A stretch of 64,000 bases of DNA from Gammaproteobacteria bacterium (GTDB taxonomy: Bacteria; Pseudomonadota; Gammaproteobacteria; S012-40): positions 124,001 through 188,000 of the forward strand of contig JAOUMY010000008.1 of assembly GCA_029881255.1 (NCBI GenBank), given 5' to 3'. A program made the translations under genes and the position numbers. The notes below the pieces were generated by a model that did not search any database, was not told where the DNA came from, and saw only the letters and a list, made by a program, of their open reading frames with translations. Positions 13,685 to 36,494 of this stretch are shown one piece after another; position 1 is the first letter of the stretch, and each line of letters starts with the position of its first letter.

Positions 13685-14503
13685 CTACCCGGCTTTAAAA
13701 CCTATCTCGTAGCCTGTGAACTTGCGCATATTGATAACACCGGTATCAAAAATTAAATACTGCCCTTTTATCCCCTGAAGAGTGCCTCCAACTTCCGGGG
13801 TTTTGTCAAAGTTAAGCGAACTGATTTTTGTCGGATACTCGGTTACTGGATATTGAATTGTCACCACTTCCTGGTTTTCCAAAATCTCAATCGCACCAGG
13901 AAACCTTGTCATCACGGCGTCTATGACCGCGCCACCTTGCTCCAGCAACTCATCTCGCGCCTGACAAAGATCCCTCTCCTCAGTATCGTTCTTCAACATT
14001 TTGCGCCAATCGGTTTTATCCGCGATAAACGCCTTTAAACCGTCCTCGATCAATCCTACCTGAAAGCGGGTCGCAGCCCTGATAATAGGCATGGCCTGTT
14101 GCGCCCCCTGGTCTATCCAGCGGGTAGGAATCTGTGACTGACGGGTGATGCCTACCTTTAGACCAGAGGCATTGGCGAGATAGACGACGTGTGCTTGCAT
14201 GCAATGTTTCTCTGCCCATTCGGGTTCACGACATGTCCCCTGGTCATAGTGACACTTTTCCGGGCGTACGATACAGATATCGCATTCCGCCAGTTTTTGA
14301 GTGCAGGGAAAACAGTAGCCTTGCCCAAAACTCTTTTTGGTTTTTCGTCCACAGGCCGTACAAAATATATTGCCCGTATGAATCAGCGAGATGTGTTTAC
14401 CAATATGGGGATTCAAAGAAACCAGCTCGTCACCGAGTCGAAGACTGTATTGCACAGGGTCCGAGAGAGTGACCGCCATTTTAGATAAATTCCCACTACA
14501 CAT
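13685..14503 (-). CDS. DUF2797 family protein
   Basis: 272 residues. Two cysteine clusters are visible: FCTACGRKTKKSFGQGYCFP with a further Cys, and a second group CDICIVRPEKCHYDQGTC ending in a Cys-rich loop, both suggestive of zinc binding. After these comes VVYLANASGLKVGITRQSQI followed by PTRWIDQGA, which resembles a GIY-YIG-like fold start. The N-terminal GNLSKM supports the start at 14503 over the inner ATG. The family is conserved in Gammaproteobacteria and its function is unknown to me. It is divergent from slyX, with only 17 bases between the first possible starts, so the promoters must overlap coding sequence or slyX starts further in. Confidence 0.85.
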   Translation of the reverse strand: MCSGNLSKMAVTLSDPVQYSLRLGDELVSLNPHIGKHISLIHTGNIFCTACGRKTKKSFGQGYCFPCTQKLAECDICIVRPEKCHYDQGTCREPEWAEKHCMQAHVVYLANASGLKVGITRQSQIPTRWIDQGAQQAMPIIRAATRFQVGLIEDGLKAFIADKTDWRKMLKNDTEERDLCQARDELLEQGGAVIDAVMTRFPGAIEILENQEVVTIQYPVTEYPTKISSLNFDKTPEVGGTLQGIKGQYLIFDTGVINMRKFTGYEIGFKAG

Positions 14504-15564: not shown

Positions 15565-16095
15565 CTAGTTACCGTTATTCGTGCCTGTCTTGACGACGGA
15601 ACTGCTGATTCCCGCTTTAGTGTCAGGGGTACGGGTATTGGGCGGCATTTTGGATAGTGCCTCTTTGTGTGTGGCATTTCCACCGGCTTTAGCCGCTTCA
15701 CGCTTACTCATATCTATCGAACCTTTGAACATAGCGCCGTCCTGCATCACGACACGAGGGGATTCGATATTGCCGATGACTCGCCCGGAAGCGCGAATCT
15801 CAACGCGTTCCTCACCGTGAAGATTTCCTTCCAACTTACCTTCCACGCAGATTTCTCTGGCGTTGATATCGGCTTTGACACGACCATGTTGCCCAATGGT
15901 GACACTATAACCTTTGAAATCTATGGTTCCTTCAACGCGGCCCTGAATACAGACGTCTTCTTCACCGGCCAGCCCGCCAGTAATGACAATAGATGGACCA
16001 ACCAAGGCGCGCTCGCGTCCATCCGCCGAAAAATTTGGCTCTGGGCGTTGTTCCACCTCCGGCTCACTGCGTTCCGCAAATGGCTTTTTCCACAT
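15565..16095 (-). CDS. Bactofilin (polymer-forming cytoskeletal protein)
   Basis: 176 residues. The central domain, residues about 33-130, has the right-handed beta-helix rhythm of bactofilins: ITGGLAGEEDVCIQGRVEGT, VTIGQHGRVKADINAREICV, EGKLEGNLHGEERVEI and SGRVIGNIESPRVVMQDGA. Flanking tails are disordered: a charged N-terminus and a Lys/Thr/Asn-rich C-terminus. Bactofilins polymerise without nucleotide at the inner membrane and position cell-wall or polarity proteins. The ATG is preceded by GAGGAA at a good distance. It probably shares a transcript with the methyltransferase-like gene downstream and is divergent from the dehydrogenase at 16250. Confidence 0.93.
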   Translation of the reverse strand: MWKKPFAERSEPEVEQRPEPNFSADGRERALVGPSIVITGGLAGEEDVCIQGRVEGTIDFKGYSVTIGQHGRVKADINAREICVEGKLEGNLHGEERVEIRASGRVIGNIESPRVVMQDGAMFKGSIDMSKREAAKAGGNATHKEALSKMPPNTRTPDTKAGISSSVVKTGTNNGN

Positions 16096-16942: not shown

Positions 16943-16975
16943 TGCAACAACTCAGAAAACGGTATCTTGGGATAC

Positions 16976-18661
16976 CTAAAAATAGCGGTAGCTGAAATTG
17001 AAGCTCACTCCAAAATCCTGCAAGTTTCTACCGCTATAATCATCTTTCTTACCCGGTGCCCATGCCCAAAACAACTCTGCCGCGTAAGACTCCCGACTTT
17101 GCCATCGCAGTCCTAGTCCCGTACTAATCAAAGTATTCAACGTACGTTGCGCCATCACATTTGCTTGCCCATAGTCGACGAATGGTATGAGCATCACACG
17201 TTGTTCCCCTATTAACCAGGCATCAATCAACAGTGGTAAATGATAGTCGAGACTCATACTCAGTACATTGTCGGCCAGCAAGGCATTTTCTCGAATGCCA
17301 CGCAGGGAGTAACGGCCTCCCAAAGGGTAGCGATCAATACTTGCCAATGCACCGGGCGCAAATTGCCCCGCGATTTTGAACAACAGGCTATCGGTGTCAA
17401 TGATTCCCACGGGTGAGGACAGTTGCACATGATATTGTAGTTGTCCTCTATAGCCGGATGGCTGTGCCGCGCCAAACAGATTCCATCGATAGGCAGTATC
17501 AAACTCAAGCATAAAACTGCGAACGACGGTGTCTCCCCGCCACCCAAAACGTAGCGCATATACATCTGGTTCGTCGAACAAATCACTTGTGTCGGCAATT
17601 TTCGTTTGCATTTTTTGCCATTGCAAGCCAGCGCGAAACAGCTGGCTCCCTTGCCATCTTGAAGATCGATACCCAAGCTCAAGGTGTATCACACGATTTT
17701 CGTTGCGTAATTCTGTATCGAAAGACTCGTTTGAATTGCCGGATTCGGGTAGTTCTTTGTTATTGATCTGACCACTTGAATAGCTTCCGCCAGCCAACAG
17801 CATAATATGCGATTGTCTGAGCGGCATGTCGTACGAGAAACCGAGTTGGGTGTGGTACCAGGATTTATAGAGTGATAGCTGGGCGCGTTCGGACCAGCCA
17901 AAATAATTATTGTAGCGCGTACTCACGTGAACGCCCTCCGCGCCTATCAGTGGTGACTGATAGTTGTTCACGCTAATAGCATACTCATAAGGCTTGTTTT
18001 CATTAACTCTGAGAAGTAGTGCGTATTGCGCGTCCTGATGGAGAGGATAGAGATAGGCCTGAACGCTATCAATCATCGGATGCGATCGCAGTTGCTGCAA
18101 GGAATGCGAAAGTGTTTTGGCATTCATGGGTTCTGTTGACACTGAACGAAAATGTTCTGCAACGACTTCTTTACTCAAGCGTCTGTTTCCGGCAATCTGT
18201 AAACGGCTAATATGACTTTCCTGTGCCACCATTCTCACAATGCCATTTGTGATAGCTGGGTCAGCGAGACTTACCTGCGCGGAAATATACCCCTGCTGTT
18301 TATAATAGGTATTGATGTGGGCCGCGACGTCATTAAGTTCGGTGTTACTCAAGGTTTTGCCCAGGTAATCTGCGAGTAGCGTATCGACAACAGTTTGGTC
18401 GATAACTACACTTCCCTGTAGTTCAAAGCCAGTCACCGTCGGCGTCCTTAGCTCATCGATCAGCTGTTTTTGTGCGCGACTAATCGCAAATACGGGCAAC
18501 ACCCTATCCGCCTGAGTGTTGCTATCCCTGATGAGTTCACTGTCCATTTCCACTTCTTGATTCCAGCGTTGCGTTAACCCGTCAATACCTGCAAAACCAA
18601 ATACAGGATAAGAAACTGTCAAAACCATGAGAAACAATAGTCGAACTCGCATTAGTAACAT
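16976..18661 (-). CDS. Two-partner secretion outer-membrane transporter (TpsB; ShlB/FhaC/HecB family)
   Basis: 561 residues with a signal peptide (LLFLMVLTVSYPVFGFAG). Residues about 60-200 hold POTRA-type domains (FELQGSVVIDQTVVDTLLAD; INTYYKQQGYISAQVSLAD); the rest is a beta-barrel ending in NFSYRYF with a C-terminal aromatic. The conserved L6-loop segment is LGGRYSLRGIREN. It should export the TpsA protein encoded just upstream. Its start overlaps the tpsA end: either ATG 18661 inside tpsA or ATG 18652, which overlaps the tpsA TAA as TAATG. The coupling supports a matched pair. Confidence 0.92.
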   Translation of the reverse strand: MLLMRVRLLFLMVLTVSYPVFGFAGIDGLTQRWNQEVEMDSELIRDSNTQADRVLPVFAISRAQKQLIDELRTPTVTGFELQGSVVIDQTVVDTLLADYLGKTLSNTELNDVAAHINTYYKQQGYISAQVSLADPAITNGIVRMVAQESHISRLQIAGNRRLSKEVVAEHFRSVSTEPMNAKTLSHSLQQLRSHPMIDSVQAYLYPLHQDAQYALLLRVNENKPYEYAISVNNYQSPLIGAEGVHVSTRYNNYFGWSERAQLSLYKSWYHTQLGFSYDMPLRQSHIMLLAGGSYSSGQINNKELPESGNSNESFDTELRNENRVIHLELGYRSSRWQGSQLFRAGLQWQKMQTKIADTSDLFDEPDVYALRFGWRGDTVVRSFMLEFDTAYRWNLFGAAQPSGYRGQLQYHVQLSSPVGIIDTDSLLFKIAGQFAPGALASIDRYPLGGRYSLRGIRENALLADNVLSMSLDYHLPLLIDAWLIGEQRVMLIPFVDYGQANVMAQRTLNTLISTGLGLRWQSRESYAAELFWAWAPGKKDDYSGRNLQDFGVSFNFSYRYF

Positions 18662-19899
18662 TCTCGTCCCATCTGAATATAGCTATCCGAATAGGGTTTA
18701 TAGTTTCCAGGCGCAGACCTCCATCTCACTCTCCCCTGTACCTGTAAAGCTTCGCTTGAGCATACGTCTGCCGCATCTCGCGCATTGACAGTTTTTTCTA
18801 TTTTGCCATTTAATAGGTTTTCGACGGATCCCGTCGACGATACGATAGACCAGTTTGCTTCAGACCCGGCGTTTCCGGATACTGTTGTTTCAAATCCAAC
18901 TGAATCGGTTACGGTACCCACCGCCCCCTGACCTATAAAAAAATCATCACTCTCTACAATATTTACTTCCTGAGAGGCCATTAGTTGGACATCTTGAGGA
19001 TTTTCCGAATTGATGTCGGAAAGAGAAACATATATCCGCTCACCTTCAATACGCATTTTAGCGCCCTCATTCAAGGTGACAGTATTGTGTTGAAAGGAAA
19101 CAAGGCCGGCACCAATATCAACTGACTTGTCCGCTGTTATATCGGTGTTGATGATATCGACCCTGCCATTTAGCGGCTCATTATTGCTTGACGTCAATTC
19201 AACGCTATCAATACGACCGCGATTTCCCGCAAAATATTTTCCAATATCAACTCTTGCGTTATTTACTATAACGTCGTTGCTGACCAAATAGAGACTCAAT
19301 CCTGGCGCATCCTCAATCACCGTACCCGAAACCAATATCGGTGCGCTATTCGCTGCATCAAGTCGGATTCTATTAGGGTTCAGTCTGCTCGTCGTGGTCG
19401 ATTCCGTTGACGATGAAAACAAACTCCCGTCACCAAATTCTATATCCGTCGCCGTGCTCGATATAAAGGCGCCATGAATGTCCAGTCTGAAATTCTTGCC
19501 AAAAATCACCCCTGAAGGATTAATTATCCAAAGATTAACACCATCGATATCGCTGGATACCAAACCGTCCAGATAACTGCTATTCCCACCGGTAACACGC
19601 GCAAATATGTGGTCAATACCGGCAGTACCGGAAAACCTTGCGTGCTCACCTTCACCGACATTGAAGCTCCGAAAACTATGGAACAGATTATTGCCTTGGC
19701 GCTGTCCATACGATTCTGTAATAGCATAGTCCGGCCCGAGCAGAAGAGCTCTCTCACCCAGTGTTCCGTCAAACTCAACTTCTGCATAGACGTACCCTGA
19801 CGTGGCAAGTAGTACCGATAGCAATACGCTACTGTATGAATACTTTTCTATTTTTCTTTTCATTCGACTGTCAACACTTCTTCTCATTCTTCTAAACAT
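18652..19899 (-). CDS. Small two-partner secretion exoprotein (TpsA; filamentous haemagglutinin N-terminal domain)
   Basis: Up to 415 residues; the start may be ATG 19899, 19887 or 19863, each leaving a long basic N-region before the hydrophobic SVLLSVLLATSGYVYA-EV signal. The TPS secretion domain is unmistakable: NLFHSFRSFNVGEGEHARFS, RVTGGNSSYLDGLVSSDI, LWIINPSGVIFGKNFRLDI and GAFISSTATDIEF. Most TpsA proteins are thousands of residues; this one has only a short beta-helix region after the TPS domain and no repeats, ending with a Cys-containing tail (DVCSSEALQ ... GREC). The product may be a compact surface protein held by a disulfide. It follows the CHAT protein gene by 24 bases. Confidence 0.92.
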   Translation of the reverse strand: MFRRMRRSVDSRMKRKIEKYSYSSVLLSVLLATSGYVYAEVEFDGTLGERALLLGPDYAITESYGQRQGNNLFHSFRSFNVGEGEHARFSGTAGIDHIFARVTGGNSSYLDGLVSSDIDGVNLWIINPSGVIFGKNFRLDIHGAFISSTATDIEFGDGSLFSSSTESTTTSRLNPNRIRLDAANSAPILVSGTVIEDAPGLSLYLVSNDVIVNNARVDIGKYFAGNRGRIDSVELTSSNNEPLNGRVDIINTDITADKSVDIGAGLVSFQHNTVTLNEGAKMRIEGERIYVSLSDINSENPQDVQLMASQEVNIVESDDFFIGQGAVGTVTDSVGFETTVSGNAGSEANWSIVSSTGSVENLLNGKIEKTVNARDAADVCSSEALQVQGRVRWRSAPGNYKPYSDSYIQMGRECY

Positions 19900-19923
19900 C
19901 GGTATTTTCTAATACGGAAAAAA

Positions 19924-22065
19924 TTAATGCGTAGTCACCATCAGACCCGCCCAATATTTTGCGGGTTGTTTCTCCTTAATCATCGCCACTTGTATATCAC
20001 GCACAGCATCTATAGGAGAAAACTTCTGAGGTACCGTAGATATTAGTTTTTGAAGAAATTCCTTTCCCTTTTCCTGTTGCCACATCGGCGTCAAACAAAA
20101 CGATACCGAGAATCGTATAGGCAGGAGGGTTAACACACTCTCATCCGGTGCATTCGCATATTCCCCCATGACCAAGACGTCATATCCACCAGTAGAAAGA
20201 AATTCTCGTAAGGAAACTTCCAATTCCTCGATAGAATAGGATTTGTCTATATCAGATACATTCGACGGACTATCAATTTCAAAATGCTGTGACGTGTACC
20301 ACAAACGGAACCCCGGTGCCAAAAGTCCCGCCAGTGGCAAATTTCCAAGTCCGGAAAAAGTCTTGCTTATGCCCTTACTAAAAAACTCCGCGCGCTCCGA
20401 GTCTGACATTGAAACGTCTTTCGTTCCCCAAGACATATTGCGTAGTCCTGTGGCATGAAAGTAGCTCAGGCTATATTTTTCCACCAGATATTTCTTGCCC
20501 GTATAAAGTGAGGCTACAGGAATTGCGCGGGTGAGCCCATCAAGACTGAATGCTAATGTATTGACTGTTTGTAGCGCTTTTTCAAAAGGCGCCAAAAATA
20601 ATTTGTATAGTTTTATTGAGGAGGGAGTAATGTCATATTCACGTTCAATTGCCGCACGCATATCGACTACATTCTGGTATATCTGATCGCGTTTAGCCCT
20701 AAGCTGATGAAATAAATATTCCTTACCTTTCTGTAAAACAACAAACGACTTATTCTTTCCAATGAAGTTATAGAAACGCGCGTCATTTGATGCCAGTTCA
20801 GGAAGGAGTGTGTGAGACGTAGTTTCGCTAACAAGAGGAAACCGCGACATCGCTTCACTCATCCTCAAGGTTTCCATCGCTTGCCACGCCCGTCTAGCAC
20901 TCTCCGGTGATTTGTCCTGAGCTAAAAATGACAAGTATTGTTCGATGAACGGACGCACAATCATGGCATAAGCGTCAGGTTCATTGTGCGCGACCTGTTC
21001 GAGAAGATTCCGCAGTTGATTGTGTGCTGCATGCATTAACTGACCGGCATTGTCATCCTTAGCAATGTCGGCGAGTATTGCCAGTTCAATATCCCAGCGA
21101 TACATACTATCTGGCGAGTCACTCTTATGCGCAAAAATACTAGCCTGTCTAAACATGTGCAGCGCCTCGGCAAAACGCCCCTCGTCGCGATAGAGTATCG
21201 CGGACATTCCCCAGGCATAGGATAGGCTGCGTAAATCTTTTGTGTTTTCAGCAAGGCTGAGCGCATTCTGATATTGTTGCAGGGCTCGTTTCCGCCACAC
21301 TCCTTTATTCTTTGAACGTTTCGAAAAATCTCGGTACAGACTTCCAAGATTAAGACAATGTTCAATGGTGAATGCATAATCATTTACGGTATCGAGTGTT
21401 GAAACAAGGTCGCCCAATAACGTCGACACACCATCAAGGCTTCCCATTTGCAGTTTTACCCTTGCCAGATTCAGGGCAGCAATAATTTCTATCTTAGAAT
21501 CATTCAGGCGCTGCGCTAAGTCCAGTGATTCGGAAAATGCCTGCTCAGCCAATTGCCAGTCCTTTACCTGGACATCGGTATAGCCAATATCCAGTAGTAT
21601 CTTGGCAAGCGCTAGGTTTTCACCTTGTGTGCGATAGTCTTGGACAAGAATGTGGAAAAAATCACGCGCCTGACTAAACTGGCGTCGAGACAGATAACTC
21701 TTGGCGAGGAAATCATAGGCAGTATTCGCCGCAACTCTGTTTTGCAGTGACGGTGCTAACTCCTGAATACGATGAAGCACCTCATTTTCGTTTTTACCGT
21801 CGTATAAACGTCTATAGGCCAGTGCAAGCAAGGTAAGTGCGCGTAATTCCCGTTCTGGATTCTGAACCTTACGAGCGTGTTCTATGTATGTCTTAAAATG
21901 ACGGATGGCCGCCAAATACTGACCGCTTTCAAGTGAACTACGGCCTTGTTCCAAGGATTGGTGATGCATTTCATTGTTGGGGAGTGTTGTCGACCAGCAA
22001 GGGACAGCAGCTATCCAACTGAATAACAAAAAGATTGTAACAATGGTGGTACGCCTGGGAGACAC
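19924..22065 (-). CDS. Exported TPR protein with degenerate CHAT domain
   Basis: 713 residues from a GTG start that gives a signal peptide (TTIVTIFLLFSWIAAVPCWS). Residues about 35-330 are TPR-like (SLESGQYLAAIRHFKTYIEH; LLDIGYTDVQVKDWQLAEQA). The C-terminal 280 residues follow the CHAT layout: LYKLFLAPFEKAL, ALSLDGLTR-like AFSLDGLTRAIPVASLYTGK, VEKYSLSYFHATGL and the terminal AKYWAGLMVTT. The active-site segments look broken: the ATHG position reads VLVMGEYANAPDE without His, and the LSACET position reads SVSFCLTP. A peptidase-dead, binding role is plausible. It heads a CHAT-TpsA-TpsB operon. Confidence 0.85.
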   Translation of the reverse strand: MSPRRTTIVTIFLLFSWIAAVPCWSTTLPNNEMHHQSLEQGRSSLESGQYLAAIRHFKTYIEHARKVQNPERELRALTLLALAYRRLYDGKNENEVLHRIQELAPSLQNRVAANTAYDFLAKSYLSRRQFSQARDFFHILVQDYRTQGENLALAKILLDIGYTDVQVKDWQLAEQAFSESLDLAQRLNDSKIEIIAALNLARVKLQMGSLDGVSTLLGDLVSTLDTVNDYAFTIEHCLNLGSLYRDFSKRSKNKGVWRKRALQQYQNALSLAENTKDLRSLSYAWGMSAILYRDEGRFAEALHMFRQASIFAHKSDSPDSMYRWDIELAILADIAKDDNAGQLMHAAHNQLRNLLEQVAHNEPDAYAMIVRPFIEQYLSFLAQDKSPESARRAWQAMETLRMSEAMSRFPLVSETTSHTLLPELASNDARFYNFIGKNKSFVVLQKGKEYLFHQLRAKRDQIYQNVVDMRAAIEREYDITPSSIKLYKLFLAPFEKALQTVNTLAFSLDGLTRAIPVASLYTGKKYLVEKYSLSYFHATGLRNMSWGTKDVSMSDSERAEFFSKGISKTFSGLGNLPLAGLLAPGFRLWYTSQHFEIDSPSNVSDIDKSYSIEELEVSLREFLSTGGYDVLVMGEYANAPDESVLTLLPIRFSVSFCLTPMWQQEKGKEFLQKLISTVPQKFSPIDAVRDIQVAMIKEKQPAKYWAGLMVTTH

Positions 22066-27364: not shown

Positions 27365-27752
27365 TAGATTCTCTTACGTGCATAAACGGGGTTTCTCAAC
27401 ACCTGTGCTTTATTTATCGTTCAAATTCAATAGCTCCTTTAGAATTAAGAAGCTATCAAATTGCCGCTGCCGTAAGAGCTAGTTTTGAATACTCTGTTTT
27501 TGAATGAGAACAGAATATCACGCTATTAGCGACGGGTTTATAGTCAGTCTTTAGTGCGTACTTCGCAGTTTCATTACTGAATTCCCGATTTTTTGCGTGA
27601 CCCTCTTCACATTTTTCATGTGACGCAAGCCCACGACAGATTGTAAACCTGTGCGAAACAATTCGTTTGTCCGAAACATAAGCCATACAAATAACCAGGG
27701 ACCGGGATTGATATTCAGTCTTGGAATGAATACAAAAAGAGAGATTTGGTTT
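27365..27752. other. Divergent intergenic region between barrel gene and giant surface protein
   Basis: 388 bases without a supportable gene. It must carry promoters for both flanking genes. It is AT-rich and holds a nested inverted repeat at 27593-27628 and an AGAGAG Shine-Dalgarno before the ATG at 27753. Reading frames that start at 27651 or 27726 continue into the adhesin but lack a ribosome site and would put 34 or 9 extra polar residues before its signal sequence. Confidence 0.6.
27593..27628. promoter_or_regulatory. Nested inverted repeat upstream of giant surface protein
   Basis: Outer arms TTGCGT (27593-27598) and ACGCAA (27623-27628) enclose inner arms CACAT and ATGTG around a five-base centre. 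The structure lies about 125 bases before the adhesin start, where a promoter, operator or leader hairpin would be expected. The inner TCACAT...ATGTGA is a reversed arrangement of a CRP site, so CRP is not supported. No known family of operators is recognised. Confidence 0.4.
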
Positions 27753-30700
27753 ATGCGTAGCGTCAACACGATTGAAAAATTATTTCACATGCCTGCCATC
27801 TATATGGGCATGTTGCTGCTGGGAATAACAGGTGGCGTCGCCACACTGTTGACGGTGAACAGTCAATTCACTCTAAACTCATCGATTACCAATTCGGATT
27901 GGTTTGCGGATGCAACACAAGACATTCGTCAACGCGAATATTTTGCCAGTTACGCGACACAAACCGTTTTTCCCGAACATGACAAGCTGCTACAGGCACC
28001 AAACCGTGCGCAACACTTTCGCAGCTATTTTCTGCCAGACCGCATCGCGCTAGTTCCACGTACCTATGACATTAGCGATACGAAGTCTAACTGGCAGTGG
28101 AGTCTACGTCTTTCCGACGTCAATGCGGACGGAACACAAATACCACTGCAAAGCGCCGTCATTGCCAATAACAAGAATCGCGTTGAGTACCAGCGCGGCA
28201 ATCTCGTCGAATGGTATATCAACAACAACAAAGGCCTTGAGCAAGGCTTCACCTTAAACGAATCACCACTGGAAAAAGACATTAATACCTTGCGTCTGAG
28301 CATGGAAGTAGAGGGGTCTCTCTACCCTCGCCTGTCCGCAAAGCGTGATGCGCTGACTTTCATCAATGAACGTGGCGTACAAATCATCAATTTCGGTCAC
28401 CTCGTTACCTACGACGCCGATAATAAGGTGCTGCCTTCCCATTTCGAATTGCGCAACCACACGCTTAGCATCGTGGTCGATACGCGCAACGCGGTATACC
28501 CGATTACCATCGACCCACTCGCTACTTCTGCCGATTGGATAGAAGACAGCCCGCAGGCCGATGCGGAATTTGCCTACGCGGTTGCATCGGCTGGTGACGT
28601 CAACGGCGATGGTTATAGCGATGTCATTATTGGTTCACGCCTCTACGACAACGGAAGCATCGATGAAGGGATGGCCTTTGTCTATCACGGTTCAGCAACC
28701 GGACTGCCAGCGACTGCAAACTGGACTGTAGATATCAATATCGCAGGTGCCGAATTCGGTACCGTGGTCGCCGGAATCGGCGACGTCAATGGTGACGGCT
28801 ATACCGATGTCGCGGTCGGCGGCAGAAATTACTCCAATGGACAGGCAACTGAAGGCGCGGTGTTTGTTTATCACGGATCAGCTAGCGGCCTACCTGTCAC
28901 TGATGACTGGTTTATCGAAGGCAATGTCGCCAGTATCGAACTCGGCTACTCCATCGGTAGCGCAGGTGACGTCAACGGTGACGGCTATTCTGACTTGGCA
29001 ATCAGCGCCCGACTATACTCCAACGGTCAAGCCAGTGAAGGTATTGCCTACGTCTTTCACGGTTCTGCTAGTGGTTTGCCCGATGGCAATTCTGACGGAC
29101 AAGGCCTGACCAGTGAAGCGAGCTGGTCGTACGAACCAAACGTGGCAAATGCACGCTTTGGCGATTCATCTATCGGCACAGCAGGCGACGTCAACGGCGA
29201 CGGATACAGTGACTTACTTGTAGGCGCGAGACGCTGGAGTAATGATGGCGGAACTACCACCGAAGGTCGCGCCTACCTATTCTACGGTTCCGCATCCGGC
29301 CTGTCCGCAAGTGAAGACTGGAAAGTGGAAAGCGATATGGACGGCTCCTGGTTTGGCCGTAGTGTTGCCACCGCTGGCGACGTCAATGGCGACGGTTATA
29401 GCGACATCGTTATCGGCGCAGGTCGATACATGAATGGACAGACTGACGAAGGTGCGGTGTTTGTCTTTCACGGCTCTGCCAGCGGCCTGCCCGACGCGGG
29501 CGCCGACGGACTTGCACACCTGTCCGACGCAAGTTGGTCAGCTGAAGGCAATGCCATCGATACCGAACTTGGCTACTGGGTTGCCAGCGCCGGTGATGTC
29601 AATGGCGACGGCTATGCCGACATCATCGTTGGCGCACGCCTATACGACAACGGCCAGACCGACGAAGGTGGCGCGTTTGTCTATTTAGGTTCGAGTAGCG
29701 GTCTATCTACAGTCGCAGACTGGTCTGCTGAAAGTGACTACGCCGGTGCCCAAATGGGGCGCACTGTCGCCTCGGCTGGCGACGTCAACGGCGACGGATT
29801 CTCCGACATCATCGTCGGTGCGCCTTTCTATAATCAGGTCGTGACCAATGACGGTCGCGCCTATGTTTATTATGGTTCTGCCGATGGTCCCGCAAGCGCC
29901 TCAAGCTGGACAGTCGACAGCAATCAGGGAACGGCTAACTTAGGTATTTCGGTCGCCTCTGCCGGCGACGTCAACGGTGACGGCTACGAAGATATCGCCA
30001 TCGGTGCGAGTACTTTCGATAATGGTCAAACCGACGAAGGTCGTGTGTTCGTCTATCACGGTGCCGCCGGTGGTCCATCGACTACTGCCGACTGGACCGC
30101 TGAAAGCGATCAGGCTAGCGCCAATTTCGGTGTTTCACTAGCATCGGCTGGCGACGTCAATGGCGATGGCTATGCCGACCTGGTCGTCGGCGCAAATCTC
30201 TACGACAACGGCGAAAGCGATGAGGGACGCGCCTTTGTCTATTACGGTAGTGGCACGGGGCTCTCGGCAACGGCCGACTGGACCATGGAAAGCAATCAGG
30301 CCAGCGCCAATTACGGTATCAGTGTTAATTCCGCAGGTGATGTAAACGGTGACGGCTACGCCGATGTCATCGTCGGTGCAAACCTGTATGACAATGGTCA
30401 GGCCTCGGAAGGTGCCGCGTTTATCTACTATGGCGCAACTACGGGTCTATCAACGTTTACAGACTGGCAAGTAGAATCCAATTCCATTAGCGCTGAATTT
30501 GGTATCAGCGTAGCCTCGGCCGGTGACGTCAATGGCGATGGTTTTGACGATGTCGTCATCGGTGCCAATAAATTTACCAATGGACAAACTGCCGAAGGTG
30601 GCGCGTTCGTCTATCACGGTTCGGTTAGCGGAGTTGCTACCAGTGCCAACTGGAGTTTCGAAAGTAATCAGGCCAATGCCGAACTCGGTGTGAGCGTTGC

Positions 30701-33700
30701 CAGTGCCGGCGACGTCAATGGCGACGGCTATGCCGATCTCGCCGTCGGTGCCAATTTATATGACAGCGGCCAGACCGACGAAGGTGTGGTGTTAGTCTTC
30801 CACGGTTCGGGAACAGGTCTAAACACCTCGGCCAACTGGACAGGTCAAATCAATCAGGCCAATGCCAATTACGGTATCAGCGTCGCCTCGGCGGGTGATA
30901 TCAATGGCGATAAATATTCGGATTTAATCGTTGGTGCCAACCTGTATGACAACGGCCAGAACGATGAAGGTGGCGCGTTTGTTTACTATGGTTCTTCCAC
31001 CGGCTTGTCCGCCTCTGCTGACGCGAGTTTAGAAATCAATCAAGCCAGCGCCCAATTCGGTATCGCGGTAGCCAGTGCCGGTGATACCAATGGTGATGGT
31101 CTTGCCGATGTTATCGTCGGCGCGAATCTTTACGACAACGGCACCACCGACGAAGGTGGCGCGTTTATGTTTATCAGCAATGGCGAAGGCAAAACACTCA
31201 CGCCACGCATGAAGAATTCCGGCGACACCGGACCGGTTGCCTTTAAAGGCGCATCCGATAGTCGAACACAATTCCGTATCGCCGTTAACGCACGTCATCC
31301 TTATGGGCGCGGTGATCACAAACTGGAATGGGAAGTAAAACCGGCCGGAACCCCGTTTGATGGAACCGGCACCTCACTCAGTTCCACCTGGACCAATAGT
31401 GGTGTTAGCGGTGGCAGCATTAGCGAAGCAGTGACCGGTTTGACCGCGGGTGCCGCCTATCACTGGCGCGCACGTCTGGTCTATGACCTGGCAACCGCAC
31501 CTGAACAACAATACAGCCGTTGGTTTAGTCCGGTACGCAACGCACATTCGGAAATCGACGTGCGCGCCGGTACTCAAATCGATATGTCGGTGACGGTAAG
31601 CGACACGGTTGACCCGGTGCCATTGGGCAATAATTTCGATTACGTTATTCAAGCCAGCAATGCCGGTCCCGATACCGCCACCGGTATCATCGTGACCGCG
31701 GTATTGCCGACGAAAGCTAGTTACAGCACGTATTCGGGTGCAGGTTGGAGTTGTGCTAACGCCAGCGGCACGGTGACCTGTCGCCTGGCATCGATAGCCT
31801 CTGGCGCGAATAGCACAGTTAATCTGACCATGACCGCAACGACGAGCGGAAGTGATAGCGTTAGCGTAACCGTTAGCGCGCGTCAGCCAGACACCAATGG
31901 TACGAACAATAGCGATAGCGAAACCACCATCATGAATACGCCTCCGGTAGGTGTGAATGACAGTGCTTCGACTAACGAAGACACTGCGGTGCTTACTGGA
32001 AACGTTCTGACCAATGACACCGACGCCGACTCGGATACGCTAAGTGTCAGCGCTGCTGATGCAACGTCGGCTAACAGCGGTAGCGTTACCAACCACGGCA
32101 ACGGTACCTTTACCTATACGCCACCGGCCAATTACAACGGTTCTGACACGTTTAACTACACCGTCAGTGATGGCAACGGTGGTACTGACACCGCAACCGT
32201 TACGATTACGGTCAATCCAGTGAATGACGCACCGGTCGCAACAGATGATACGGCGACGACGAATGAAGACACGGGCGTTCTCACTGGCAACGTGTTGGCC
32301 AATGACACCGATATCGATGGCGACGGCCTGTCTGTGAGCGCGGCCGATGCCAGCTCGGCTAATGGCGGTAGCGTTACCAATCACGGAAACGGTACGTTTA
32401 CCTTTACACCAGCCGCCAACTACAACGGCAGCGATACATTTAACTATACTGTCAGCGATGGTAACGGCGGCACCGATACCGGAACGGTAACGGTAACCGT
32501 TAATCCAATCAATGACGCGCCAGTTGGGGTTAACGATACGGCCTCGACTAATGAGGACACTGCGGTTCTTACCGGCAACGTCTTGACTAATGACACCGAC
32601 CCGGAAGGCGACACACTATCTATTGCAACTGCGGATACCACTTCAGTCAGCGGTGGTAGCGTAACCAATCATGGCAACGGTACGTTTACCTATACGCCTG
32701 CGGCCAATTTCAATGGCAGCGACAGCTTTACTTACACCTTGAGCGACGGCAACGGTGGAACCGACACCGCGACTGTCAATCTGACCGTCAATCCTGTCAA
32801 TGACGCGCCAGTTGGGGTTAACGACAGCGCGAGCACCAATGAAGACACGGCAGTACTCACCGGCAATGTGTTGAGCAATGACACAGACATCGAAGGTGAT
32901 ACCTTGTCGGTTAGCGCGGCCGATGCAACTTCCGCCAATAGCGGTAGTGTGACCAATCACGGTAACGGCACGTTTACCTACACACCACCTGCCAACTTCA
33001 ACGGAACAGATACGTTTAACTATACTGTTAGCGATGGCAACGGCGGCACTGACACCGCGACCGTAACCATTACAGTAAATGCGGTGAACGATGCGCCGGT
33101 CGGCGTGAACGATACAGCTTCAACAAATGAAGACAGTGGCGTTACCACCGGTAATGTATTGACCAACGACACCGACACCGAAGGCGATACCCTGAGTGTT
33201 GCAGCGGCAGACGCCAGTTCGGCGCAAGGTGGTTCTGTAGTCAATCACGGCAACGGTACTTTCACTTACACACCACCGGCAAACTTTAACGGCAGCGATA
33301 GTTTTAACTACACCGTTAGCGATGGCAATGGTGGAACCGATACCGCCACGGTCAATCTGACCGTGAATCCGGTAAACGATGCGCCAGTGGCCAATGACGA
33401 TACGGCCAGCACCGCGGAAGATACGCCGGTACTGACCAGCACCGTACTGATTAACGATAGTGATATCGATGGCGACACGCTGAGTATTTCTGCGGCAGAC
33501 GCCACTTCAGTACAAGGTGGTACGGTGGTCAATCACGGCAACGGTACGTTTACCTATACACCACCAGCCAACTTCAGCGGCGGCGACAGCTTCACCTATA
33601 CCATTAGCGATGGTAATGGTGGTACTGACACCGCGACAGTGAATATTTCCCTGACCGGCGTTAACGATGCACCGGTTGCGACAGCAGATAGTTTTAGCGT

Positions 33701-36494
33701 GAACGAAGATATTGCCTTGTTAACCGGCAACGTACTCGCTAATGATAGCGACGTCGATGGCGACACACTAAGCGTGGCCAGCGCAGATACAAGCTCGGCC
33801 AATAGTGGAAGCGTCGTCAACAATGCCAATGGCACGTTTACCTATACGCCAGCGGCAAACTTCAACGGTACAGACACGTTCAACTACACCGTGAGCGATG
33901 GCAATGGCGGTAGCGACACGGCGACAGTGACGATTACGGTCAATCCGATTAACGATGCGCCAGTCGGTACCGACGACACCTACTCCTCACCGGAAGATAC
34001 GATCTTTAACGTACCGAATGTGTTGACGAATGACGTCGATGTGGACGGTGACACGATTAGTGTTACGAGCGCGGATGGTACATCTGCGCAAGGCGGAACC
34101 GTGGTCAACAATAGCGACGGCACCTTTATCTACACGCCTGTGTTGAACTTCGTCGGTAGCGATAGTTTCAACTACACTATCAGCGATGGTAATGGTGGCA
34201 GTGGTTCTGCAACAGTGAACCTGACAATCACCGCGTCGAACGATGCGCCGGTTGCGGTAAACGACAGTGAAACCACAGCGGAAGACACACCGTTTACGAC
34301 GGCCAATGTCATGACTAATGACACCGATTCCGATGGCGACACTTTATCTATTACAGGTTTTACCACGACCTCGGCCTTCGGTGGCGTCGTCAGTCATAAT
34401 GGCGATGGCACGTTTAACTATACGCCGACGGCCAACTTCAACGGCACCGATAACTTCGATTACACCGTAAGCGATGGCAATGGTGGCAGTGACAGCGGTC
34501 GTGTGTATATCACGGTCACAGCAGTCAACGATATGCCTGTTGCCAATAACGACACGCTAATCACCAATGAAGACGTGATGATGGTCAGCGGCAACGTGTT
34601 GAGCAATGACAGCGATATCGATGGTGATACATTGACCGTCATAGGCGCAGACACTGCCTCGGTGAACGGTGGTTTTGTGGTCAACCACGGCAATGGCTCC
34701 TTCACATATACACCGGCCTCGAACTTCAGTGGTAGCGACTCGTTTAATTACACGATATCCGATGGTAATGGTGGAACTGATGTGGGTACGGTTGTTGTCA
34801 CGGTGAATGGTACTAACGATATACCGGTAGCCGGCAATGACAGCGCCGCAACATCGGAAGACACGACTGTCACTATCAACAATGTTCTGCTTAACGACAC
34901 CGACGCCGATGGTGACGTTCTCAGCGTTTACTTCGCTGATAGTCTATCAGTCGAAGGTGGTAAGGTCGTTAATCTGAACAACGGACAGTTTACCTACACG
35001 CCTCCACCAAACTTTACCGGTGTGGACAGTTTTATGTATCTGGCCGCCGACACCAGTCTCGGAACCGATGTGGCCACAGTAACAATTACCGTTACACCGG
35101 TCGCCGACGCGCCGATTACGGTTGAGGACAAAGTCATAACAGACGAAGATACACCGATAACGATTATCGATATCATCGCCAATGACTACGATCCGGATGG
35201 TGACGCCATTACGCTTACTAGCGTAGACACGGTGTCGGTCAATGGCGGGCAAATTGTCGACCTCGGTGAAAACGCCTACCGTTATCTTCCACGCGAAAAC
35301 TTCTTCGGTCCGGATAGCTTCGGCTACACCATAGAAGACTCGACTGGATTGACAGCAACAGGTACTGTTTCAGTTACCGTGAATTCTATCGGTGACGCAC
35401 CAGTGCTCACGATGAAAGACATCAACGGTATTGTCGTCATGCAAGGCCAGTCGACATCCTTCAATGTCATGGTTACTGATCCGGATCAACAAGGTTCGTA
35501 TACCTTGAGTGCCTCGGCCAGTGCCTTGGGTATCTTTGAATTCAAAGGCGACAAGGTCAAGTTCACCGGTACTGTTGCCGGTTCCGAAACTGTGGATATC
35601 ATTGCCACTGACGAAGGCGGTCTCAGTAGTAGCAAGACACTGTCTGTAGTGGTAAATGCTGCGAATCTCCTCGACAGCAACGACGATGGCGTGACAGACG
35701 CACAGGCTATGGCCATCGGTATAGATCCCAAGGCTTCGCAGGCAGACACCGACGGTGATGGCATTCCGGACAAATATGAAATCGGTGATCCAAACAATCC
35801 GACAGACAGTGATGGCGATGGCATTATCGACGCGCTGGAATATGGTGATGCGGCCAATGATGCAACGCGCGCCAATATCGCTATAAGCGATCACGTATCC
35901 AATCTGGGTTCACTCGGTGATTTGTCAGAACAAATCGTTGAACTTGGGCTGAGTGCGAATAGCCAATTCGTGGCCAATAATCACGAAACCTTGGGGGCTA
36001 TGAACAAGCCTTTCGAGAATATTCCGCTGATTACCGAGGCCTCGACAGGTGTAGAAGACACCGCGTATGGCTATCCGCTTGGTATATATGACGCGAGCAT
36101 TTCCACATCGGAAGGCACGACAACATTGACACTCAAATTCCCAGAAGGCGTGGATATTCCTGAGAACGCAGTCATCCGTTACCTGGATCAAAACAATCAG
36201 TGGCAAACGGCGACCGATGCGGTCATCGATCGCAGCACAGGCGAAGTGCACATACCGTTGACTGATGCGGGTTCTATGGACCGTGACCTCAAACCTGAAC
36301 TGATCAACAGCATTGTTGGTGTTGGTGTTCCCGGTTGGGAGGGTAAAGGTGAAACCATTAAGAGTTATAAATGGTCACTGGGCGGCGGTGGATGTTCCAT
36401 CGGCAAGAGCGACAAGGTTGATCCGTTCTTCCCTGCAATACTTATGATGTCGCTGTTACACTTGGGAATGCGTCGACGTCGAAGAGCGCAGTAA
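27753..36494 (+). CDS. Giant secreted repeat protein: FG-GAP propeller plus tandem cadherin-like domains with C-terminal sorting tail
   Basis: About 2,913 residues from the ATG at 27753 (AGAGAG upstream). Order: hydrophobic signal (AIYMGMLLLGITGGVATLL), a unique domain, 14 FG-GAP repeats of about 62 residues (SAGDVNGDGYSDVIIG type; DVNGDGYxD calcium loops as in integrin propellers), a fibronectin-like and a DUF11-like domain, 12 tandem cadherin-like repeats of 96 residues (NEDTAVLTGNVLTNDTD ... GSDTFNYTVSDGNGGTDTAT), an Ig-like domain, TSP3-like calcium loops (DTDGDGIPD, DSDGDGIID), a choice-of-anchor-like domain and a tail GGGGCSIG, DPFFP, hydrophobic span, RRRRR. The tail resembles JDVT-CTERM sorting signals. 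Likely a calcium-stiffened surface adhesin. Confidence 0.92.
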   Translation: MRSVNTIEKLFHMPAIYMGMLLLGITGGVATLLTVNSQFTLNSSITNSDWFADATQDIRQREYFASYATQTVFPEHDKLLQAPNRAQHFRSYFLPDRIALVPRTYDISDTKSNWQWSLRLSDVNADGTQIPLQSAVIANNKNRVEYQRGNLVEWYINNNKGLEQGFTLNESPLEKDINTLRLSMEVEGSLYPRLSAKRDALTFINERGVQIINFGHLVTYDADNKVLPSHFELRNHTLSIVVDTRNAVYPITIDPLATSADWIEDSPQADAEFAYAVASAGDVNGDGYSDVIIGSRLYDNGSIDEGMAFVYHGSATGLPATANWTVDINIAGAEFGTVVAGIGDVNGDGYTDVAVGGRNYSNGQATEGAVFVYHGSASGLPVTDDWFIEGNVASIELGYSIGSAGDVNGDGYSDLAISARLYSNGQASEGIAYVFHGSASGLPDGNSDGQGLTSEASWSYEPNVANARFGDSSIGTAGDVNGDGYSDLLVGARRWSNDGGTTTEGRAYLFYGSASGLSASEDWKVESDMDGSWFGRSVATAGDVNGDGYSDIVIGAGRYMNGQTDEGAVFVFHGSASGLPDAGADGLAHLSDASWSAEGNAIDTELGYWVASAGDVNGDGYADIIVGARLYDNGQTDEGGAFVYLGSSSGLSTVADWSAESDYAGAQMGRTVASAGDVNGDGFSDIIVGAPFYNQVVTNDGRAYVYYGSADGPASASSWTVDSNQGTANLGISVASAGDVNGDGYEDIAIGASTFDNGQTDEGRVFVYHGAAGGPSTTADWTAESDQASANFGVSLASAGDVNGDGYADLVVGANLYDNGESDEGRAFVYYGSGTGLSATADWTMESNQASANYGISVNSAGDVNGDGYADVIVGANLYDNGQASEGAAFIYYGATTGLSTFTDWQVESNSISAEFGISVASAGDVNGDGFDDVVIGANKFTNGQTAEGGAFVYHGSVSGVATSANWSFESNQANAELGVSVASAGDVNGDGYADLAVGANLYDSGQTDEGVVLVFHGSGTGLNTSANWTGQINQANANYGISVASAGDINGDKYSDLIVGANLYDNGQNDEGGAFVYYGSSTGLSASADASLEINQASAQFGIAVASAGDTNGDGLADVIVGANLYDNGTTDEGGAFMFISNGEGKTLTPRMKNSGDTGPVAFKGASDSRTQFRIAVNARHPYGRGDHKLEWEVKPAGTPFDGTGTSLSSTWTNSGVSGGSISEAVTGLTAGAAYHWRARLVYDLATAPEQQYSRWFSPVRNAHSEIDVRAGTQIDMSVTVSDTVDPVPLGNNFDYVIQASNAGPDTATGIIVTAVLPTKASYSTYSGAGWSCANASGTVTCRLASIASGANSTVNLTMTATTSGSDSVSVTVSARQPDTNGTNNSDSETTIMNTPPVGVNDSASTNEDTAVLTGNVLTNDTDADSDTLSVSAADATSANSGSVTNHGNGTFTYTPPANYNGSDTFNYTVSDGNGGTDTATVTITVNPVNDAPVATDDTATTNEDTGVLTGNVLANDTDIDGDGLSVSAADASSANGGSVTNHGNGTFTFTPAANYNGSDTFNYTVSDGNGGTDTGTVTVTVNPINDAPVGVNDTASTNEDTAVLTGNVLTNDTDPEGDTLSIATADTTSVSGGSVTNHGNGTFTYTPAANFNGSDSFTYTLSDGNGGTDTATVNLTVNPVNDAPVGVNDSASTNEDTAVLTGNVLSNDTDIEGDTLSVSAADATSANSGSVTNHGNGTFTYTPPANFNGTDTFNYTVSDGNGGTDTATVTITVNAVNDAPVGVNDTASTNEDSGVTTGNVLTNDTDTEGDTLSVAAADASSAQGGSVVNHGNGTFTYTPPANFNGSDSFNYTVSDGNGGTDTATVNLTVNPVNDAPVANDDTASTAEDTPVLTSTVLINDSDIDGDTLSISAADATSVQGGTVVNHGNGTFTYTPPANFSGGDSFTYTISDGNGGTDTATVNISLTGVNDAPVATADSFSVNEDIALLTGNVLANDSDVDGDTLSVASADTSSANSGSVVNNANGTFTYTPAANFNGTDTFNYTVSDGNGGSDTATVTITVNPINDAPVGTDDTYSSPEDTIFNVPNVLTNDVDVDGDTISVTSADGTSAQGGTVVNNSDGTFIYTPVLNFVGSDSFNYTISDGNGGSGSATVNLTITASNDAPVAVNDSETTAEDTPFTTANVMTNDTDSDGDTLSITGFTTTSAFGGVVSHNGDGTFNYTPTANFNGTDNFDYTVSDGNGGSDSGRVYITVTAVNDMPVANNDTLITNEDVMMVSGNVLSNDSDIDGDTLTVIGADTASVNGGFVVNHGNGSFTYTPASNFSGSDSFNYTISDGNGGTDVGTVVVTVNGTNDIPVAGNDSAATSEDTTVTINNVLLNDTDADGDVLSVYFADSLSVEGGKVVNLNNGQFTYTPPPNFTGVDSFMYLAADTSLGTDVATVTITVTPVADAPITVEDKVITDEDTPITIIDIIANDYDPDGDAITLTSVDTVSVNGGQIVDLGENAYRYLPRENFFGPDSFGYTIEDSTGLTATGTVSVTVNSIGDAPVLTMKDINGIVVMQGQSTSFNVMVTDPDQQGSYTLSASASALGIFEFKGDKVKFTGTVAGSETVDIIATDEGGLSSSKTLSVVVNAANLLDSNDDGVTDAQAMAIGIDPKASQADTDGDGIPDKYEIGDPNNPTDSDGDGIIDALEYGDAANDATRANIAISDHVSNLGSLGDLSEQIVELGLSANSQFVANNHETLGAMNKPFENIPLITEASTGVEDTAYGYPLGIYDASISTSEGTTTLTLKFPEGVDIPENAVIRYLDQNNQWQTATDAVIDRSTGEVHIPLTDAGSMDRDLKPELINSIVGVGVPGWEGKGETIKSYKWSLGGGGCSIGKSDKVDPFFPAILMMSLLHLGMRRRRRAQ
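28545..31190 (+). repeat. 14 tandem FG-GAP-coding repeats, period about 186 bp
   Basis: Each unit encodes one FG-GAP blade with a central calcium loop of the form GDVNGDGYxD and a YDNGQTDEG turn. Most units are 62 codons (186 bp); units 3, 4 and 5 carry insertions of a few to about ten codons. DNA identity is highest among units 8-14, where blocks such as GGCGACGTCAATGGCGACGG recur, so recent unit duplication or gene conversion is likely there. Confidence 0.9.
31944..35399 (+). repeat. 12 tandem cadherin-like repeats of exactly 288 bp
   Basis: Units run PV...ND(A/I/M) and each codes 96 residues; 12 x 288 = 3,456 bp matches the interval exactly, so no unit has gained or lost a codon. Units 1-7 are the most alike and units 8-12 progressively diverge; 11 and 12 lose the SDGNGG turn. 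A degenerate Ig-like unit follows from 35400. Confidence 0.92.

Follow-up and report, generated by a model that had tools for sequence, protein, structure and literature searches.

Why should a homologue of CHAT proteases, with a signal-peptide-like N terminus, be encoded directly upstream of a two-partner secretion (TPS) pair? The question is raised by a three-gene unit of a gammaproteobacterium (assembly GCA_029881255.1, contig JAOUMY010000008.1), located in the stretch of 64,000 nucleotides analyzed here (positions 124,001 to 188,000 of the contig; the window). Read 5' to 3' on the minus strand, the unit encodes a TPR-CHAT homologue, a small TpsA exoprotein, and a TpsB transporter. Clusters of TpsA, TpsB, and TPR-CHAT genes are widespread and often also contain genes for a CHASE2 receptor and a DUF928 protein; in the two clusters that were checked, the receptor is a CHASE2-cyclase. 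Such clusters are apparently undescribed; in the open-access literature, no report was found on the CHAT domain with two-partner secretion or filamentous hemagglutinin and none on DUF928 with CHAT. Judged from its protein domains, the window unit belongs to type Vb (two-partner) secretion and is a relative of this widespread TPS-CHAT cluster. The anatomy of the unit and the CHAT-TPS linkage described below are held with high confidence.

Linkage of CHAT and TPS genes across genomes

The genome containing the window has only two CHAT-family and two TPS-family matches, and these are arranged as two neighboring pairs. A CHAT alignment was used to scan genome contigs, which yielded 80 named CHAT loci; in 56 of them, local profiles detected a TPS or TpsB gene within the flanking sequence that was fetched. 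Because three of the five CHATs whose similarity served to select the loci are TPS linked, the proportion of 56 in 80 does not apply to CHATs at large. TPS or TpsB genes were nearby in 24 of the 30 loci having at least 5 kb on each side, and class-sample loci found with the window CHAT followed the same linkage pattern. Linked loci occur in six phyla (Pseudomonadota, Nitrospirota, Thermodesulfobacteriota, Verrucomicrobiota, Methylomirabilota, and Cyanobacteriota), and the median distance from CHAT to the closest TPS or TpsB open reading frame (ORF) is 87 bases. Furthermore, the sole TPS gene lies within ~10 kb of a CHAT gene in four genomes, a proximity with a probability of ~1e-9 under random placement of single copies.

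The second pair in the same genome belongs to a fuller cluster on contig 16 (L005), encoding a CHASE2 protein, TpsB, a 1668-aa TpsA, a PEP-CTERM protein, an intact CHAT, and DUF928. Its TpsA, TpsB, and CHAT are of the same families as those of the window unit, from which it differs in the intact dyad, the length of TpsA, the presence of CHASE2, DUF928, and the PEP-CTERM protein, and a CHAT divergent from TpsA. The PEP-CTERM protein (L005:8702-9700, minus strand) lies between TpsA and CHAT. A plasmid of Pseudanabaena sp. ABRG5-3 (NZ_AP017566.1) carries, under the annotators' names, ShlB, CHASE2, FHA_N, CHAT, and DUF928 in a row; the window shares its ShlB, TPS, and CHAT families but lacks the CHASE2 and DUF928 genes and the 1270-aa length of its TpsA. 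TPS or TpsB was found in 18 of 20 cyanobacterial CHAT regions read, ten of which had been chosen for long open frames; eight of the remaining ten are linked.

At three cyanobacterial loci (L142, L242, and L247), Pfam places the TPS and CHAT domains on one chain, of 1756, 1660, and 959 aa, respectively. The first, on a plasmid of Acaryochloris marina MBIC10699 (NZ_AP026078.1; TPS, 1e-51; CHAT, 2e-59), consists of the TPS domain, the TpsA cysteine tail, and, immediately after the tail, TPR and a CHAT domain that retains both His and Cys. It differs from the window in having one gene instead of two and in its intact His/Cys. Natural fusions of TpsA and CHAT are strong sequence evidence that the partners act together, in a manner that they leave unspecified. 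Most long frames around cyanobacterial CHATs were rejected as fusions, tpsA and chat being in frame but separated by stops; only L242 and L247 are real there. At L235, L237, L238, L239, and L240, the two genes share a frame with one or two stops between them, which hints at a fusion origin. As separate observations, a C14 caspase-family gene (L026:4181-5065, plus strand) lies between the TPS and CHAT genes in genome G044, and 37 TPS-domain matches were found in one cyanobacterial genome, that of Coleofasciculus (G378, locus L129).

A tree of 94 TPS domains is divided by a branch that has 100% support in the Shimodaira-Hasegawa-like approximate likelihood ratio test (SH-aLRT). Every one of the 60 CHAT-linked rows, that of the window among them, falls on the same side, which additionally holds 12 unlinked rows; the opposite side consists of 22 classical unlinked rows. 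The row nearest to the window is the locus of G009, from the same family of genomes, grouping within the CHAT side being weakly supported. Placed by its TPS domain, the window TpsA belongs to the CHAT-linked TpsA group defined in this analysis. In addition, when the window TpsB is compared with the class, five of the seven top-ranking matches other than itself are CHAT linked (G023, G228, contig 16 of the same genome, G350, and G197).

The window unit and its degenerate CHAT homologue

A preliminary description of the window had proposed a tight minus-strand unit of three genes, and both the ORFs and the Pfam assignments of all three bear this out (Table 1). The spacing was also confirmed: 24 bases separate the genes for the CHAT homologue and TpsA, and both described TpsB starts are present in the sequence, ATG at 18661, overlapping the TpsA gene by 10 bases, and ATG at 18652 within TAATG. 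The arrangement is operon-like, and each of the three ORFs opens with a hydrophobic, signal-peptide-like segment. The features of two-partner secretion are a TPS domain on TpsA and, on TpsB, POTRA_2 (PF08479; 4e-14) and the ShlB barrel (PF03865; 3e-15); PDB sequence matches of TpsB were to CdiB, TpsB4, and a cyanobacterial Omp85-type chain. Terminator-like hairpin sites were not enriched relative to shuffled sequence, and the one following TpsB is a consensus match only. No CHASE2 or DUF928 profile match was found in the 64-kb window.

Table 1. Coordinates of the window unit and its parts (numbering of the window)
Feature	Position	Strand	Basis
TPR-CHAT homologue, 713 aa, GTG start, catalytically degenerate	19924..22065	-	Pfam; homologous over full length to intact TPR-CHAT proteins
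Signal-peptide-like N terminus of CHAT homologue, MSPRRTTIVTIFLLFSWIAAVPCWS	21991..22065	-	Sequence
TPR superhelix, residues 31-415	20821..21975	-	TPR_12, E 1e-13; mostly pLDDT >90
N-terminal CHAT half, residues 428-543, retained	20437..20784	-	Pfam CHAT 5-62; 6/8 near-invariant residues kept
Catalytic CHAT half, residues 546-713, degraded	19927..20430	-	Conserved-position match; low pLDDT
His594, catalytic His column, retained	20284..20286	-	His in 68/68 aligned relatives
Lost catalytic Cys site (Gly634 by MAFFT; ~Tyr636 if aligned ungapped)	20158..20166	-	Cys in 68/68 relatives
TpsA, 415 aa, 45.0 kDa, exactly two cysteines	18652..19899	-	Pfam TPS domain, 4e-32
TPS secretion domain and few beta-helix coils, residues 41-315	18955..19779	-	Model mostly pLDDT >80; Foldseek
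C-terminal tail, residues 323-415, predicted disordered; Cys380 (18760-18762), Cys414 (18658-18660)	18655..18933	-	pLDDT <50
TpsB transporter, 561 aa: signal peptide, POTRA domains, ShlB barrel	16976..18661	-	Pfam
Terminator-like hairpin directly 3' of TpsB	16961..16976	-	Consensus match only

The CHAT match of the first protein (PF12770; E 4e-9) is above the Pfam cut-off and covers only the N-terminal part of the profile (positions 5-62 of 289), next to the TPR_12 match; the protein can nevertheless be aligned over its full length with 68 CHATs. Of the His-Cys dyad that is invariant in all 68, the window copy keeps His alone. Its catalytic half matches 22% of conserved positions, compared with 80% on average and no less than 54% among the relatives (n = 68), and retains 13 of the 36 near-invariant residues. 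For the TPR part, the match is 42%, inside the range of the relatives; decay is thus concentrated in the catalytic half, with TPR less affected. The only cysteines are residues 23, 237, and 657, and Cys657 aligns with Ala, so that a relocated nucleophile is unlikely from the alignment.

An AlphaFold model of the CHAT homologue (mean predicted local distance difference test score [pLDDT], 81) represents TPR and the first CHAT half well, whereas residues 542-611 and 622-641 have a pLDDT of <50. Foldseek matched the model to Craspase TPR-CHAT and separase (7y8t, 7y83, and 9hma), which identifies its architecture as a known one. Compared with CHAT peptidases, the protein has the homology and lacks the complete dyad. 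Because the catalytic Cys is lost and the catalytic half is degraded, a working protease is very unlikely, and the earlier suggestion that this copy processes the exoprotein is not supported. The designation as an exported TPR-CHAT protein stands with regard to TPR, CHAT homology, and the signal-peptide-like N terminus, a hydrophobic segment being present there in 89 of 98 related CHATs versus 30 of 490 internal stretches; it requires the correction that this is a CHAT homologue without the catalytic Cys. No close orthologue was found among 369 genomes of the class. Assignment to a defense system was rejected, as PADLOC gave a weak TPR match for the CHAT homologue and none for TpsA or TpsB, as was a phage origin, PHROGs giving only a weak TPR-region match of unknown function.

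The TPS secretion domain of TpsA (PF05860) is the only domain above the Pfam and NCBIfam cut-offs; beyond it, the protein has only a short coil region and a disordered tail, and identification as a contact-dependent inhibition toxin or a TPS hemolysin was rejected. Foldseek matched the TpsA model best to the HxuA secretion domain (4i84), then to EtpA and FHA, with HMW1 lower. At 45.0 kDa, the protein is unusually small, since TpsA proteins are about 100-650 kDa according to a review (PMC5422565). The preliminary description regarded this size as setting the protein apart. The small size was confirmed, but in the TPS tree the protein groups with CHAT-linked TpsAs of greater length, whose C-terminal cysteines it retains. 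Similarly, toxin domains were indeed not found by Pfam and NCBIfam, but the protein is not devoid of further features, as it carries the family-specific cysteine tail. By these sequence features, it is a shrunken CHAT-linked family member, consisting of the TPS domain and a two-cysteine tail.

Cys380 and Cys414 are its sole cysteines. Tail cysteines were counted in the last 130 residues of the 58 CHAT-linked TpsAs that are complete at the C terminus, including that of the window: 57 have at least one and 42 at least two, the last Cys is ≤15 residues from the C terminus in 37, and the total is 99 observed versus 26 expected. In HMW1 and HxuA, a C-terminal disulfide fixes the protein in its transporter (PMC5422565, PMC3297439), and the positions of Cys380 and Cys414 resemble an anchor of this type, in a tail that is low confidence in the model. 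A GRGG.P-like tail motif with a basic residue was not detected as a pattern in the TpsA of the window or of G009; as a candidate cut site, this motif (41 of 57 tails versus 9.7 in shuffles) was left unused because the pattern had been picked after the tails were viewed.

In the same family of genomes, G009 has the window's gene order, CHAT-TpsA-TpsB, with an intact CHAT and a 704-aa TpsA, and neither unit has CHASE2 or DUF928 beside these genes. G006 encodes TpsA (541 aa) and TpsB with no adjacent CHAT. In G008, a short TpsA (about 340 aa), apparently split across two contig ends, is followed by TpsB, and upstream of TpsA is a giant repeat protein and no CHAT. CHAT therefore need not accompany the pair. 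The four loci could represent stages of CHAT loss, although four loci make no trend. A tie between CHAT loss and small TpsA (415, ~340, and 541 aa without an active neighboring CHAT; 704 and 1668 aa with one) was rejected on the basis of too few loci.

Several neighboring genes were also recorded. A DUF2797-like gene (13685-14503, minus strand), labeled by reading of the sequence rather than by Pfam, lies downstream of TpsA-TpsB in the window; G006 has the orthologue of this gene further downstream of its pair (L199:6668-7078), with 69% identity over 132 residues. A bactofilin gene (15565-16095, minus strand), adjoining a weak methyltransferase-like gene, is just downstream of the unit. The window also encodes a 2947-aa surface giant (27651-36494, plus strand) with FG-GAP-like and tandem-95 repeats and a JDVT-CTERM sorting tail at its end.

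Possible roles of the CHAT protein

In the mechanism proposed here, TpsB would export TpsA, and a disulfide in the C-terminal tail of TpsA would stall that tail in the periplasm, so that the protein stays tethered to the surface like HMW1 and HxuA. The exported, periplasmic CHAT Cys protease of an intact cluster would then act on the tail in the manner of LapG on CdrA, releasing or maturing TpsA, with the CHASE2 receptor possibly supplying a signal to the protease. A window CHAT without the catalytic Cys would not cut, so that the uncut mini-TpsA is predicted to stay tethered. Through its TPR part, this CHAT may serve as a periplasmic scaffold that still binds TpsA or TpsB; otherwise, the gene may be heading for loss. 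This mechanism, action on an anchored tail in intact clusters and an uncut, tethered TpsA in the window, is drawn largely by analogy and is tentative, falling a little short of an even chance. The further proposal that TPR-CHATs are dedicated, cluster-encoded, and sometimes fused periplasmic proteases for maturation or release of a large TpsA subfamily in at least six phyla, with the window as a derived pseudoprotease scaffold for a minimal tethered TpsA, is doubtful.

Several observations weigh against tail cleavage by CHAT. TPS or TpsB was missing from the fetched flank of 24 of the 80 CHAT loci, flanks often ending at contig ends, which makes absence of a gene weak evidence, and several G044 TPS genes of the CHAT-side clade have no local CHAT. 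Fusion of TpsA with CHAT indicates association, not cleavage, and clustering of the genes could stem from coregulation rather than from pairing of enzyme and substrate. The tail Cys pair is absent in 16 of the 58 CHAT-linked TpsAs, the localization of CHAT is read from hydrophobicity alone, and action of a cyclase pathway on a periplasmic protease is conjecture.

Alternatively, the CHAT protein, active or dead, may work in the periplasm as a TPR chaperone or targeting factor, maintaining TpsA in an unfolded state and delivering it to the POTRA domains of TpsB, with proteolysis secondary. The well-modeled and less decayed TPR domain, the position of CHAT before TpsA in the window and G009, and the hydrophobic N terminus of most related CHATs are all consistent with such a role. 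Nevertheless, invariance of the dyad in every aligned relative indicates that catalysis is normally under selection, the pairs of G006 and G008 have no adjacent CHAT, and CHAT follows the TpsA tail in the fusions, which is not the position expected of an early chaperone. A chaperone function, which the preliminary description also put forward together with holding of the exoprotein, is considered unlikely.

Unlikely to a similar degree is that the window CHAT is a functionless, decaying remnant, with TpsA and TpsB working alone. The low match of the catalytic half to conserved positions compared with its relatives would fit such decay, as would the related CHAT-free pairs and the lack of a close orthologue in the class. 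However, the frame is open over 713 codons, the signal peptide and a TPR domain predicted to fold well are retained, and the gene is still in a tight unit with TpsA.

A cyanobacterial CHASE2-DUF928 cluster is on record, and a DUF928 protein is reported to respond to acid stress (PMC5587647). CHAT, CHASE2, and DUF928 might form an envelope stress signaling unit that shares neighborhood and regulation with a TPS adhesin without acting on it, and some CHAT-CHASE2-DUF928 loci indeed have no TPS in the fetched flank. This is distinctly improbable in view of the natural fusions, the short median gap between CHAT and TPS or TpsB, and the presence of CHAT, TpsA, and TpsB without adjoining CHASE2 or DUF928 in the window and G009. 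Neighborhood by chance, which the preliminary description named as one outcome that would overturn its module, has practically no probability given linkage far above chance in at least six phyla, the second cluster in the same genome, the TPS tree, the proximity of single-copy genes, and the fusions.

Comparison with known systems

Proteases for TpsA maturation appear not to be encoded in TPS operons, and several remain unidentified (PMC5422565). Conservation of a CHAT protease next to TpsAs, or as a fusion with them, across Nitrospirota, Pseudomonadota, Verrucomicrobiota, Cyanobacteriota, and other phyla would make it a direct candidate for such a protease. The working analogy for intact TPS-CHAT clusters is CdrA/LapG of Pseudomonas aeruginosa, in which LapG, a periplasmic protease, cuts the tail of the anchored TpsA CdrA (PMC5422565). 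Unlike in that system, CHAT is not of the LapG family, the putative protease is encoded in the TPS cluster, cleavage by CHAT is proposed by analogy, and the window copy is without the catalytic Cys.

Craspase TPR-CHAT (Csx29) and separase share the architecture of TPR and CHAT with the window protein. Both are intracellular and active, whereas the window CHAT has a signal peptide, no catalytic Cys, and no CRISPR partner. If the proposed function is true, exported CHAT proteins would gain a role outside CRISPR. Furthermore, the tiny window TpsA with its dead CHAT would provide a natural minimal construct for the parts needed in secretion and anchoring. Compared with HMW1/HMW1B and HxuA/HxuB, the window unit differs in its 45-kDa TpsA, its CHAT partner gene, and the lack of a recognized adhesin or heme-binding moiety; it shares with them the TPS domain, the POTRA-barrel transporter, and the C-terminal Cys pair.

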